Below are positions 9,364-45,986 of a DNA stretch of 46,546 nucleotides, piece by piece (position 1 is the first letter of the stretch; every line of letters starts with the position of its first letter). The translations under genes and the position numbers were made by a program. This DNA comes from a virus. The notes under the pieces were generated by a model. It saw nothing but the letters and a program-made list of their open reading frames with translations. It was not told the DNA's origin and searched no databases. Where the stretch lies: IMG/VR virus record IMGVR_UViG_3300044816_000217, positions 1 to 46,546 of that record; one strand, 5' to 3'.

Positions 9364-9372
9364 TGCTACAAT
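9364..9372 (+). promoter_or_regulatory. Extended -10 promoter motif (TGCTACAAT)
   Basis: TGC-TACAAT lies 73 nt upstream of the coiled-coil secreted protein. No good -35 is seen at 16-18 nt. It would start the late region transcript. Confidence 0.4.
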
Positions 9373-9445
9373 TCCCAGATATAAGCTTGTCCGTTTGAGT
9401 GTGTGCCTCACTGACAAGCGGGGCACGCGTTCAAGCGCAAAGAAT

Positions 9446-9856
9446 ATGAGAATTAGGACAGTCATCGTTTCAGCAGCAGTACTTTGTTTAATCGCCCCAT
9501 CCTTCACAGCAGCGGCATTCGTGGACGCATCGGCCGCCGCAAAGGCTCAGGTATCCGGCCTCTCGCAGCAGCAGCTCGACAGCTTGAATACGAAGGTGTT
9601 CAGTGACGCCCATCTAACAGCGAAGATTATCGGCTTCGACCGTAGCGAGATCGATCAGATCAAGGCGGAGCTTCAAGCATTGCGGAGCGAGAACGCCCAG
9701 CTCAGAGCCCAAGCCAGCTGGCAATCCGTAGGAGCGCCGCCAGCATCATCACTTGAGGCACGTGTGAGCGCGTTGGAGGGTAGCTTCAGCGCATTGCAGG
9801 GAACGCTCGTGACCGTTGTTCAAATGCTTACGAGCCTGCTTGCTAAGCTACAGTAG
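9446..9856 (+). CDS. Secreted or periplasmic coiled-coil protein
   Basis: 136 aa. Residues 1-24 (RIRTVIVSAAVLCLIAPSFTAAA) form a signal peptide. Residues about 65-85 (IDQIKAELQALRSENAQLRAQ) are a heptad coiled coil, and a second helix (LEARVSALEGSFSALQGTLVTVVQML) is also heptad-patterned. The oligomeric periplasmic product might be a spanin-like or envelope factor, but this is only inference. The frame is open upstream, but the ATG at 9446 gives the complete signal peptide. Confidence 0.7.
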   Translation: MRIRTVIVSAAVLCLIAPSFTAAAFVDASAAAKAQVSGLSQQQLDSLNTKVFSDAHLTAKIIGFDRSEIDQIKAELQALRSENAQLRAQASWQSVGAPPASSLEARVSALEGSFSALQGTLVTVVQMLTSLLAKLQ

Positions 9857-33530: not shown

Positions 33531-34037
33531 CTACCGGGCAAAGCCGCGGCCAACCCATAAAAGCGCGTAGCCGATGAGGAATAATGCAGCCGGAGGCAAC
33601 ACAGTCCATGCGAGCCATGTACCTGCGGTGCCGCCCCAGCGCCACCAGCGCTGCGTCCAGAATTGTCCGGCCATGTACGTCTGATCTTCGTTCGTCCATG
33701 CCGACGCCAAATAAAGCGTGCTGGAATCGGGAAATTTGATAGCGATCATACTGCCGTCCGTTAGCGACTTATTCCAAGCATCCACGTACTGCGCTTCCAA
33801 TTCCGGGAATGATGGGGTCAATTTTTCCTTAGCAGGCGACCGCCATGTCTCGTAGTGGCCGGAAGGTTTTTCCCGAGTCGCGAAAATGTCGACACCTGGA
33901 AGTGCCTCGTAGGAATACTGGTAGTTCTTATTCTTGAATTGATCCGGTCCCCAGACGACGGCCGCTGTAGCTACGCTCCCGACCCACAGAGCCGTGATCA
34001 ATGCCCAAGCCCGGAACAGACCTCTACCGACATTCAT
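33531..34037 (-). CDS. Two-TM membrane protein (moron)
   Basis: 168 aa. The N-terminal helix (FRAWALITALWVGSVATAAVVWG) and C-terminal helix (GTWLAWTVLPPAALFLIGYALLWV) flank a roughly 100-residue soluble loop, probably periplasmic. TAGGGGCG lies upstream of the ATG. Such small inner-membrane proteins with opposite orientation are typical lysogenic-conversion genes; no family is recognised. Confidence 0.7.
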   Translation of the reverse strand: MNVGRGLFRAWALITALWVGSVATAAVVWGPDQFKNKNYQYSYEALPGVDIFATREKPSGHYETWRSPAKEKLTPSFPELEAQYVDAWNKSLTDGSMIAIKFPDSSTLYLASAWTNEDQTYMAGQFWTQRWWRWGGTAGTWLAWTVLPPAALFLIGYALLWVGRGFAR

Positions 34038-34068
34038 TACTGTCGCCCCTACCAGTGCCCCAGTGTAG

Positions 34069-34409
34069 CCGCCTAGCGGCGGATCGCTAGCCGTTCCGTA
34101 CCGACCCCCCGTGCCGATGCCATGTAGCGATCCCGTGTCGCTATTGGTGTCAGTACGCTATAGCGCGCAACGCGCTGACACTACACCTTTTCCCCCATCA
34201 CATGCCCGCGCTTATCAGCGCGACCCAATTCTTCCTGTGGTCTTATATCTATCTCTTATACGTGCATCCGCATGGGAGGCTACCGCCTCTCAACTCCACC
34301 CACTCGCTGCACGGACAAGTCCGATCGCTTACGGGCTATCGGAACACTCGCTTCGCTCGCGTCCGATAGTCCGCGCGCCGGCCTCGTCCGTGACACGTCC
34401 TATTGGACG
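34069..34409. other. Hairpin-dense intergenic region
   Basis: At least seven perfect short inverted repeats in about 340 bp: CCGC/GCGG near 34070-34080; GTGTCAG (34147-34153)/CTGACAC (34175-34181); CGCGCT (34207-34212)/AGCGCG; GAGGC (34276-34280)/GCCTC; CGGAC (34312-34316)/GTCCG; CTATCGGA (34336-34343)/TCCGATAG (34362-34369); CGTCC (34396-34400)/GGACG. There is no supported gene here. This density suits a replication origin, transfer origin or structured RNA (inference). Confidence 0.55.
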
Positions 34410-34546
34410 GTCGCTCGCTACCGGAATAATTGGGTCGCGCTGACGCGCAGACGGGCAGTGAATGGGGGGCAGTTGCAATAACATTTCGCTCCGCTTCGCC
34501 AGTCCACAATTCAGGAACCATGTACAGGGGCAGTGCGGGCTTGGCA

Positions 34547-34555
34547 TGGTACAAT
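34547..34555 (+). promoter_or_regulatory. Extended -10 promoter motif (TGGTACAAT)
   Basis: TG-G-TACAAT, with no clear -35. It would drive the early operon with a leader of about 65 nt that contains the candidate pseudoknot. Confidence 0.45.
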
Positions 34556-34568
34556 TCACTCCATAGCA

Positions 34569-34608
34569 GCTAGAGCGTTCTGTTTCGCCCCTGTCTCTAG
34601 CGGGGGCG
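34569..34608 (+). promoter_or_regulatory. Candidate H-type RNA pseudoknot in early leader
   Basis: Stem 1 is GCTAGAG (34569-34575)/CTCTAGC (34595-34601). Stem 2 is CGCCCC (34586-34591)/GGGGCG (34603-34608). The 5' strand of stem 2 lies in the loop of stem 1 and its 3' strand follows one base after stem 1, the topology of an H-type pseudoknot. ATG 34627 is 18 nt further on. Confidence 0.45.
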
Positions 34609-34626
34609 ATGTAGAGCGAAGACAAT

Positions 34627-35049
34627 ATGGAAAAGGAGAATGCGGGGCGCGTTATTAAGTTCAGGGCGTGGAATAGCGAGGATGGAATGTTCATTCCGAT
34701 GGCCGTTAAGAACGACATCCAAACGCATGAGCCCGAAGAAGGAAGCGATGCAATTATGCAGTTTACCGGCCTGCACGACGTGAACGGAAAGGAGATTTAC
34801 GAGGGGGACATTCTTCATTGCGAATCTGGAAGGGCAAGCGGAAATGTAATTGTCCAATGGCTCGCACCAGAACCATCGAAAGCTGGACTAGTAGACGGTA
34901 TCTTCGGAGAGAAAATCGACCTTGACGGGTACATGTCCGACTTGGGCCGCTTCTGCACGAAAAAAATAGGCACAAACCACCCCGCCGTATACGCGGGACG
35001 TATCGAAATCATCGGCAACATTTACGAGAACCCGGCGCTGCTAAAATAG
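34627..35049 (+). CDS. YopX family protein
   Basis: 140 aa. VIKFRAWNSEDGMF...IMQFTGLHDVNGKEIYEGDILHCESG...RIEIIGNIYENPALL has the full YopX motif set (KFRAW; QFTGL.D.NGKEIYEGDI; IGNIYENP). These small phage proteins have no established function. It is the first gene of the early operon and a paralogue of the gene at 39009. Confidence 0.9.
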   Translation: MEKENAGRVIKFRAWNSEDGMFIPMAVKNDIQTHEPEEGSDAIMQFTGLHDVNGKEIYEGDILHCESGRASGNVIVQWLAPEPSKAGLVDGIFGEKIDLDGYMSDLGRFCTKKIGTNHPAVYAGRIEIIGNIYENPALLK

Positions 35050-35050
35050 T

Positions 35051-35428
35051 ATGAAGCTCGAACAACAGGTATGCAGCCGTGACCTTGCAAAGAGGCTCAA
35101 GGAATTGGGAGTGAAGCAAGAGGGTCACTTCTGGTGGCTCGACCACAAGGACGAAGAACCGTCTCTATCGCAGGAGGGGCATTTCCATGGTTGGAACAAT
35201 GACAACAAGTGTCGCGCCTTCACCGTGGCAGAGCTTGGAGAGGTACTATGGCTAAAAGCTTCACCCGATCAGATTTTGGAGGCATACGGACAGGTGTTCA
35301 ATGTTCCTGAGACACCCACCATCACGCCTGAAGGACTAGCGCAATGTATGGAAAACGCGAGCATCGTCGCCAAAATGCTCATCTACCTACTGGAAAATAA
35401 CCTGATCGACCGTGCCACCCTGCGCTAA
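35051..35428 (+). CDS. KLEQQVCS-type phage protein, copy 1
   Basis: 125 aa. It starts KLEQQVCSRDLAKRLKELGVKQ and ends AKMLIYLLENNLID, like the gene at 42496; the middle is different. This kind of short phage protein is recurrent, but I know no function. The start follows the previous stop by 1 nt and lacks a Shine-Dalgarno site. Confidence 0.75.
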   Translation: MKLEQQVCSRDLAKRLKELGVKQEGHFWWLDHKDEEPSLSQEGHFHGWNNDNKCRAFTVAELGEVLWLKASPDQILEAYGQVFNVPETPTITPEGLAQCMENASIVAKMLIYLLENNLIDRATLR

Positions 35429-38566: not shown

Positions 38567-38587
38567 ACATTACAAAGCAAATGCCTT

Positions 38588-38627
38588 CCGACACCTGATG
38601 TTCGTCATTTGCGGCATCGGGTGTCAG
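38588..38627 (+). promoter_or_regulatory. Stem-loop upstream of the small membrane gene
   Basis: CCGACACCTGATG (38588-38600) pairs with CATCGGGTGTCAG (38615-38627) at 11 Watson-Crick positions plus a wobble, with one mismatch. It lies 24 nt before ATG 38652. Confidence 0.45.
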
Positions 38628-38651
38628 AGGGAAACTAACAACAATCACATT

Positions 38652-38813
38652 ATGTCCATATCGCAAAAGCTTTCCGCTCTTTTCAACGCCGCAATCTTTG
38701 GGCTAGGGGTCGGGTTGGTCGAGCAGTCCTTCGTAACCGCCGTCTTCGGATTTGTCGTCTTTCTCAATTTCCTTCTCACTGCATGGATTATTAATAACAC
38801 CCAGGAACTATGA
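38652..38813 (+). CDS. Small membrane protein (53 aa)
   Basis: 53 aa: SISQKLSALFNAAIFGLGVGLVEQSFVTAVFGFVVFLNFLLTAWIINNTQEL, with two hydrophobic segments. The ATG follows CACATT with no Shine-Dalgarno site. The stop overlaps the next gene as ATGA. This begins the distal half of the early operon. Confidence 0.6.
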   Translation: MSISQKLSALFNAAIFGLGVGLVEQSFVTAVFGFVVFLNFLLTAWIINNTQEL

Positions 38814-39016
38814 CCCCGTTCATCAAATCCCGCAGCATCGCCTTCAACGGCTGCTCACTGTTCTACATCGACCACAAGACAGACAGACGCCGGAAGAACA
38901 TCGCAGCAATCAAACGATCACTCGGCCGCATCTTCTCTCGCCTCACACTGGCGAATAGCGGAACGTCGATCATGCTTGCAGCAGCTTTACCAACATTAAC
39001 GGTTCTATATGCGTGA
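38810..39016 (+). CDS. Small basic hypothetical protein
   Basis: 68 aa, Arg/Lys-rich (DHKTDRRRKNIAAIKRSLGRIFSRL). Coupled to the previous gene (ATGA) and overlaps the YopX gene by 8 nt. Tight packing supports it as real. The function is unknown. Confidence 0.55.
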   Translation: MTPFIKSRSIAFNGCSLFYIDHKTDRRRKNIAAIKRSLGRIFSRLTLANSGTSIMLAAALPTLTVLYA

Positions 39017-39386
39017 GATCAAATTCAGGGCTTGGGACAATGAGCGGCAAGTGATGGCCCCTGTGGTTGAGATGCTCTTCGACCAATACGGCGGCATAGA
39101 CGTTCGGCCCTCGCATCGCATGGGCATTAACGAACCGGCCCTTGGTCCTATCCTCCTCATGCAATTCACCGGCCTCAAAGACAAGAACGGCAAGGAGATA
39201 TATGAGGGGGATATTGTGAAGGTGATCGAACAGTTGCATCCGACCACCGTACAGTTCGAAGATGGGCAGTTCTGTGTTGAGGTGACGAGCCGTCGTAAAG
39301 CAAAGGTCGCTTTGTGGGGCGAAGCTTCTACCTGTGAAGTCATCGGCAACCGCTTCGAGCATCCAGAACTTATCAAATCAAACTAA
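39009..39386 (+). CDS. YopX family protein, second copy
   Basis: 125 aa. REIKFRAWDNERQVM...ILLMQFTGLKDKNGKEIYEGDIVKVIEQL...CEVIGNRFEHPELI carries the complete YopX signature. It is a paralogue of the gene at 34627 but shares only the motif core. Role unknown. Confidence 0.9.
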   Translation: MREIKFRAWDNERQVMAPVVEMLFDQYGGIDVRPSHRMGINEPALGPILLMQFTGLKDKNGKEIYEGDIVKVIEQLHPTTVQFEDGQFCVEVTSRRKAKVALWGEASTCEVIGNRFEHPELIKSN

Positions 39387-42109: not shown

Positions 42110-42499
42110 ATGAAAATTCCTGAAGAAGCAATCGCAAAGGCGATAGAAGGAGGGTGGATACCCAAAGGGGTTGAGGCACATAAGATCACTGGCTGGACGT
42201 TAGACGATGGAGTGCTGAAAATCCTCGGCACTTATAACAAGACAAAATCAGTCACCGATTACATCCTTGTCGAACAGATCGCCCTGGACCCCTCATTCTG
42301 GCAGAGCTTAGGGAAGGCGTTGGGGTGGGGCATCAGAAAAACAATGTTCCACACCGAAATCCAAGATGATGAATGGTATCGCAACATTGAGAACAAGAAA
42401 CATGCCGTTTATCAGGGGACAGAGTTCGCTAACCTCATCCTCACAGGCGGCGACACAGACGCTTACTGGAAAGGATTATTAGATAAAACGAGCGTATGA
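42110..42499 (+). CDS. Hypothetical early phage protein
   Basis: 129 aa. KIPEEAIAKAIEGGW...EQIALDPSFWQSLGKALGW: the ALDPSFWQSLGKALGW motif recurs in short phage proteins of unknown function. It is in the early operon and coupled to the next gene by ATGA. Confidence 0.7.
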   Translation: MKIPEEAIAKAIEGGWIPKGVEAHKITGWTLDDGVLKILGTYNKTKSVTDYILVEQIALDPSFWQSLGKALGWGIRKTMFHTEIQDDEWYRNIENKKHAVYQGTEFANLILTGGDTDAYWKGLLDKTSV

Positions 42500-42876
42500 A
42501 ACTCGAACAACAAGTATGCAGCCTCGACCTCGCAAAGAGGCTCAAGGAATTGGGGGTGAAGCAAAGCAGCTTCCTGTATTGGTTCAAATACACAGAAGAC
42601 CGTGACTGCTTCTTGAACGTAGGCTTGCCGACCGGAGCATATAACGGGAGCGTTCATGATCACCACGCCGAAAACTGGCGTGATGGCGAAATCTGGTCAG
42701 CCTTCACCGTCGCAGAGCTTGGGGAGATGCTGTCGCCGACGATGGTAGAGGGAAAGAGATTTTGGTTCAGCGACACAAGGGAGGCGAGAAGCAACGCGAC
42801 ATTTATGATCAACGAAGCAAACTCCCGCGCCGAAATGCTCATCTACCTACTGGAAAATAAGCTCATCGCTTCGTGA
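42496..42876 (+). CDS. KLEQQVCS-type phage protein, copy 2
   Basis: 126 aa. N-terminus KLEQQVCSLDLAKRLKELGVKQ and C-terminus AEMLIYLLENKLIAS nearly match the gene at 35051; the middle differs. The DNA ends are far more similar than the middle, implying recombination or gene conversion. It is the last gene of the early operon, convergent with the repressor. Confidence 0.75.
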   Translation: MKLEQQVCSLDLAKRLKELGVKQSSFLYWFKYTEDRDCFLNVGLPTGAYNGSVHDHHAENWRDGEIWSAFTVAELGEMLSPTMVEGKRFWFSDTREARSNATFMINEANSRAEMLIYLLENKLIAS

Positions 42877-45940: not shown

Positions 45941-45986
45941 GCTTCCCAAGCTGCATACGAGGGTTCGATTCCCTTCGCCCGCTCCA
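45941..45986 (+). other. attR: 3' half of tRNA-Gly(CCC)
   Basis: From GCTTCCCAAGC (anticodon stem-loop with CCC) through the T-arm GAGGG-TTCGATT-CCCTT to the acceptor strand CGCCCGC, discriminator T and CCA at 45986. The 5' half of the tRNA is absent: the sequence before 45941 cannot form the D-arm or a GCGGGCG acceptor strand. GC content rises to the right. Confidence 0.9.

Follow-up and report, generated by a model that had tools for sequence, protein, structure and literature searches.

Between a phage promoter and a YopX gene, two short inverted repeats interlock in such a way that the RNA could fold into a pseudoknot. Which structure does this leader form, and what would it do for the gene that follows? 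The locus belongs to a 46.5-kb virus, and the window analyzed here is the whole stretch of 46,546 nucleotides. From its sequence, the phage was judged to be temperate because it has an integrase-like ORF (1-1116) and, close to its right end, 46 bp that match a tRNA-Gly gene; this segment (45941-45986, 96%), which also matches several Pseudomonas phages, is likely the attachment-site core. A first-pass annotation of the locus had proposed a candidate H-type pseudoknot that could control translation or read-through of the early operon, or act as a ligand sensor.

Architecture of the leader upstream of the YopX gene

The two perfect interlocked stems of 7 and 6 bp proposed at 34569-34608 are present letter for letter, in the order GCTAGAG (34569-34575), CGTTCTGTTT, CGCCCC (34586-34591), TGT, CTCTAGC (34595-34601), G and GGGGCG (34603-34608), and the extended -10 element (TGGTACAAT) and the ATG of the YopX gene also lie where they had been placed (Table 1). 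Both stems of that description stand, but it is incomplete. The second stem extends to 7 bp (stem C), and beyond two weak positions there is a further, overlooked 7-bp outer stem, CGTTCTG/TAGAGCG (stem B). Stems C and B together make up a 16-position hairpin, BC (34576-34618), which is the minimum-energy fold of the leader alone (z -4.0 and -3.4). It is nested and, as predicted, excludes the first stem of the earlier description (stem A). Judging from the promoter spacing, stem A would start some 5 nt from where the transcript is expected to begin, and AAGACAAT follows the BC hairpin.

As a bare pattern, interlocked stems of 7 and 6 bp have four starts on the plus strand of the window, compared with a mean of 2.7 in dinucleotide shuffles. 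The pattern itself is thus close to chance level, and it is conservation that lifts the feature above chance. No intrinsic terminator or attenuator (a G+C-rich hairpin with a U tract) was detected in 33900-34800; a terminator or attenuator reading was rejected on these grounds, and the suggested control of read-through by termination finds no U tract or terminator-like site downstream.

Table 1. Positions of the leader copies and associated features in the window
Feature	Position	Strand	Remarks
Extended -10 element TGCTACAAT of second leader copy	9364-9372	+	
Second leader copy	9385-9437	+	A 9385-9391, BC 9392-9407, A' 9413-9419, BC' 9422-9437
Small ORF, 136 aa, signal-peptide-like start	9446-9856	+	after second copy, upstream of terminase genes
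Extended -10 promoter element TGGTACAAT	34547-34555	+	identical in nearest relative, G003
Stem A, 5' arm GCTAGAG	34569-34575	+	
Hairpin BC, 5' arm	34576-34591	+	B 34576-34582, weak 34583-34584, C 34585-34591
Loop TGT	34592-34594	+	
Stem A, 3' arm CTCTAGC	34595-34601	+	within BC hairpin loop
Linker G, 1 nt	34602	+	
Hairpin BC, 3' arm	34603-34618	+	C' 34603-34609, B' 34612-34618
YopX gene after first leader copy	34627-35049	+	start codon 8 nt past hairpin
Probable third copy, looser class	38577-38631	+	A 38577-38583, BC 38584-38599, A' 38606-38612, BC' 38616-38631

Comparison with the nearest relative

For the 34569 leader, a single close relative turned up, in G003 (IMGVR_UViG_3300002461_001232), a phage whose terminase is 92% identical to that of the window phage. 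The two leaders have the promoter stretch GGCATGGTACAATTCAC exactly in common and differ in their stem letters, and it was this comparison that revealed stem B. Stem A changes from GCTAGAG/CTCTAGC in the window to GCTTGCA/TGCAAGC in G003 (three double changes) and stem C from TCGCCCC/GGGGCGA to CCGTCCC/GGGACGG (two double changes), while in stem B, which changes from CGTTCTG/TAGAGCG to CGCCGTG/TACGTCG, six of the seven pairs are kept, with two double changes and one mismatch. Since the changes in one arm are mirrored in the partner arm, stems A, B and C look selected for pairing. The first-pass annotation had named loss of its two stems in homologous leaders as the observation that would speak against them; both are kept there, and they covary.

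A leader family ahead of different genes

The same architecture was identified in 10 copies in six phage records, with two copies in the window, three in G003, two in G013, and one each in G006, G010 and G014. The window and G003 copies were obtained with a descriptor of the architecture, those of G006 and G010 with a covariance model built from five sequences and then kept by structure, and one copy each of G013 and G014 by pattern scans filtered by structure; the second G013 copy, which has an 18-bp helix, came from a nine-sequence covariance model. Copies also had to show sequence, promoter or start-codon context, because bare counting of interlocked stems fails to separate real from chance occurrences.

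The order of parts is an extended -10 element, 12-13 nt, A (7 nt), BC (16 nt), 3-5 nt, A', one or two G, BC' (16 nt), 7-9 nt and ATG. The family is 50-55 nt in length and occupies most of the untranslated region from the extended -10 promoter to the start codon. Seven copies have a clear extended -10 element at 12-13 nt; the other three (G010, G014 and the second copy of G013) have no clear promoter element at the usual spacing. In all ten, the start codon follows 7-9 nt past the hairpin, ahead of different genes, which fits the translational role that had been suggested.

The genes headed by these copies are HNH endonuclease genes in four cases (G003, G010, G013 and G014), small ORFs in three, YopX genes in two and, in one, a methyltransferase-like gene, named by eye without a search, that resembles phage DNA N6-adenine methyltransferases. 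The three G003 copies stand ahead of YopX, a homolog of the ORF at 9446 and an HNH endonuclease gene; the ORF at 9446-9856 itself has no Pfam or PHROG match. Several copies precede single HNH genes, and the two window copies precede long gene blocks, namely the early region and the terminase region. A device special to the early operon is therefore not supported, since the leader precedes many unrelated genes and recurs within the window at 9385. Within the window phage, the second of the two YopX genes (34627-35049 and 39009-39386) has no detected leader copy, and neither has the second of the two paralogs starting with MKLEQQVCS (35051-35428 and 42496-42876). Moreover, when a covariance model was run against 50 records that carry YopX relatives, no leader copy turned up, although the same model found targets elsewhere, indicating that the leader is not bound to YopX.

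A looser second class comprises three leaders of the same topology with other letters and a CATTAnAA stretch in front, located at 38577-38631 of the window, in G003 (L109), and in G001 ahead of another YopX gene. The window member is followed by a start codon at 38652 that opens a small membrane-like ORF. These leaders are graded as probable rather than certain because the scan gives about 1.5 matches per shuffled set of equal size.

Searches for further copies covered several resources. Exact hairpin and promoter patterns in IMG/VR returned only G003 and chance matches, among them a promoter match in a T7-like phage (L114). When 84,980 prokaryote species genomes were scanned with a strict pattern, 99 stretches were returned, with no convincing structured copy among the loci examined; the sole examined locus that passed the structure filter (L202) does so at a site that bears no relation to the pattern and lacks leader context, and was judged a chance hit. 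A terminase search of genome contigs revealed no relative. When the whole window was compared with Rfam release 15, there was no match at the gathering threshold, and both leader copies gave chance-level scores only (E 0.3-10).

Other elements near the leader and its relatives

The intergenic DNA upstream of the promoter, at 34185-34475, is filled by a long-range hairpin of very high stability (z -10.8 on the plus and -9.95 on the minus strand). Long hairpins of comparable kind lie upstream of YopX in G003 and G006, with other stem letters and the pairing kept, so that a structured element of about 230-290 nt seems to be conserved. The window (34332-34373), G003, G006 and G013 have the hairpin GGGCTATCG...CGATAGTCC in common; besides the window, its loci are L263 (minus strand, near 1703), L100 (minus, near 1491) and L094 (minus, near 1641), and in G013 it lies upstream of a leader copy. 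In addition, G003 carries an extra gene of HNH-like appearance (L109, 5354-5944), placed after the long hairpin and before the YopX promoter. The first codons of this gene (ATGTACAGATGCA) are similar to a stretch that immediately precedes the YopX promoter in both phages, as if a remnant of an insertion or loss.

Covariation of the stems

In an alignment of five copies, 97.4% of cells are paired, and the covariation score was reached by none of 500 shuffles. With nine copies, which include orthologs and close kin and thus represent fewer than nine independent lineages, 97.1% of cells are standard pairs and double changes occur at 17 of the 23 pairs. In stem A, 100% of the cells are paired and three pairs show double changes; in BC, the paired share is 95.8%, and 14 of the 16 pairs show such changes. 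The score of the nine-copy alignment is 0.85, compared with a mean of 0.19 in shuffles and at most 0.23 in slid registers; one linker G was omitted from two of its sequences for register, and the unaltered five-sequence alignment agrees. In all ten copies stem A is fully complementary, with varying letters. Thus A and C, two helices that interlock as in an H-type pseudoknot, have both been kept in evolution, and the structure of the leader is strongly supported by comparison of its sequences.

G-U pairs are present at both middle positions of BC in most copies, pointing to an RNA of the plus strand rather than a DNA cruciform. The repeats could in principle be DNA sites, such as a cruciform or an operator built from inverted half-sites, in view of the promoter close by and of the letters that A and B' have in common in the window copy. 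These common letters are not retained in G003, however. Covariation of the arms can be followed through the individual pairs and involves many letter types, and the same positions repeatedly hold G-U pairs, which would be mismatched in DNA, so that we regard DNA sites as very improbable.

Two folds and a proposed switch

When the RNA was folded up to the end of A', the minimum-energy structure held stem A (6-7 pairs) in all nine copies; for the full leader, it was BC with no A pair in all nine, as computed by a program that cannot score pseudoknots. As argued from A-form geometry and linker lengths, stem A and the full BC hairpin can hardly coexist, because A abuts B without a spare nucleotide and its partner lies about 45 Angstrom away, at the far end of a 16-bp helix, with linkers of only 3-5 and 1-2 nt. 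By the same reasoning, A and C together are possible, with B then serving as a 9-nt connector; this is not a canonical H-type arrangement, and its third loop has 1-2 nt over 7 bp. A standing H-type pseudoknot is accordingly not what the predictions favor: the stable fold is the nested BC hairpin, the third loop of 1 nt over a 7-bp stem is non-canonical, and the pseudoknot could exist only while stem B is open.

Since BC is several kcal/mol more stable than A, stem A may be only transient. The main argument for another relevant state is that A has been kept by selection although it is absent from the predicted final fold. Stem A might lack a role of its own and only steer the folding of BC, which would then be a passive insulator before the start codon, in line with a predicted final fold that lacks A in every copy; its complementarity in ten of ten copies despite letter changes demands a selected reason for the pairing, and this makes the insulator scarcely credible.

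Because the same fold stands ahead of quite different genes in several phages, the leader is most likely a movable switch for translation of whichever gene follows; we infer both this function and the direction of the effect from sequence. The switch would have two exclusive states that share the inner stem C, namely an A + C pseudoknot and the B + C hairpin of 16 bp. During transcription, the A/C pseudoknot would form first, leaving arm B' by the start codon free and the start region accessible. The RNA would then relax into the BC hairpin, which ends 7-9 nt before the start codon and would limit ribosome access, and the leader would thereby time or damp translation of the next gene. The choice between the two states might fall to a protein or to ribosomal protein S1. 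Promoter, leader RNA and gene would travel together as a mobile cassette. To this reading as a whole, a mobile promoter-leader cassette whose RNA switches from pseudoknot to hairpin and in this way times or restricts translation of the gene behind it, we give an even chance. A more specific version, in which the leader is a phage RNA timer whose nascent pseudoknot opens a brief translation window that collapse into the 16-bp hairpin closes, carried on a transferable cassette for genes needed in small or early amounts, is conceivable and on the whole doubtful. Most of these leaders have weak Shine-Dalgarno matches, as do most predicted genes of the window phage (median duplex energy -1.8 kcal/mol, with 7 of 38 at -5 or better).

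Alternative roles of the leader

Placement next to a promoter raises the prospect of an RNA that acts on RNA polymerase like HK022 putRNA, with the nascent fold binding the elongation complex and suppressing downstream pausing or termination. The distance from the promoter, fixed in seven of the ten copies, agrees with this, as do the long early and terminase gene blocks behind both window copies and the occurrence of multiple copies within a genome, which put shows as well. The architecture is unlike that of putRNA with its two stem-loops, however, several copies stand ahead of single HNH genes, and the start-codon distance, which a polymerase-only RNA would not need, is held in ten of ten copies and thus better than the promoter distance; we consider such a role unlikely. 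One leader ahead of several genes would also permit common control by an RNA-binding protein of phage or host origin, acting as a repressor or activator of translation, with stem A, the loop and CAAGCGGG as the recognised shape. Well-conserved letters in stem A (GCUUG/CAAGC) and adjoining it (CCU, GGG), amid variable stems, are what such a site might display, but they may reflect pairing constraints only, and no candidate protein was identified, so that a protein site has a small chance in our estimate. Stem A, starting so near the expected 5' end, could furthermore bear on mRNA half-life, an improbable explanation that leaves both the fixed start-codon distance and the competition of B with A unexplained.

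Relation to known systems

In the timP, tisB and rpsO leaders, a 5'-UTR pseudoknot that competes with other folds governs access of the 30S subunit, and in timP one form folds during transcription and is followed by a slow switch to the pseudoknot (PMC11295053). The phage leader would resemble them in setting a leader pseudoknot against competing folds at translation initiation. It differs in that the predicted order is reversed compared with timP, with A first and the hairpin last, and in having no known antitoxin RNA and one leader ahead of many unrelated phage genes. In the MS2 maturation-gene leader and aapA3, a metastable fold of the nascent RNA permits or prevents translation for a limited time, until a stabler fold forms (PMC6733600). 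The transient-then-stable timing would be alike, whereas the structures differ, and those are single-gene devices in contrast to a repeated cassette.

T4 homing-endonuclease leaders (I-TevI, mobE and segB, as well as seg43 of Aeromonas phage 25) have a stable hairpin directly before the start region, which in seg43 lies just upstream of the ribosome site (PMC2988022). A hairpin at the start of endonuclease genes is also found here, where four of ten copies, not those of the window, head HNH genes; in contrast to the present family, no second competing stem has been described there, and our leaders also precede YopX, methyltransferase-like and small genes, with the promoter upstream of the whole structure. 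HK022 putRNA, of about 70 nt, consists of two stem-loops with a triplex and acts on RNA polymerase (PMC9378689). It is similar in its promoter-proximal placement and in occurring more than once per phage genome, but a single hairpin of 16-18 bp plus stem A takes the place of the two stem-loops here. A further mark of putRNA is antitermination through contact with the zinc domain of the polymerase beta' subunit. In the part of the literature covered, no description of such a phage leader was found. We describe the leader as a new RNA family of a known kind of device, with an architecture matched by none of these four groups.

If the proposed switch is true, the leader would be a compact natural bistable element with two mutually exclusive, covarying helices that works beside many different genes. 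Whether co-transcriptional folding determines when translation takes place could be tested cleanly with it, and in temperate phages it may mark mobile gene cassettes that are transcribed separately.
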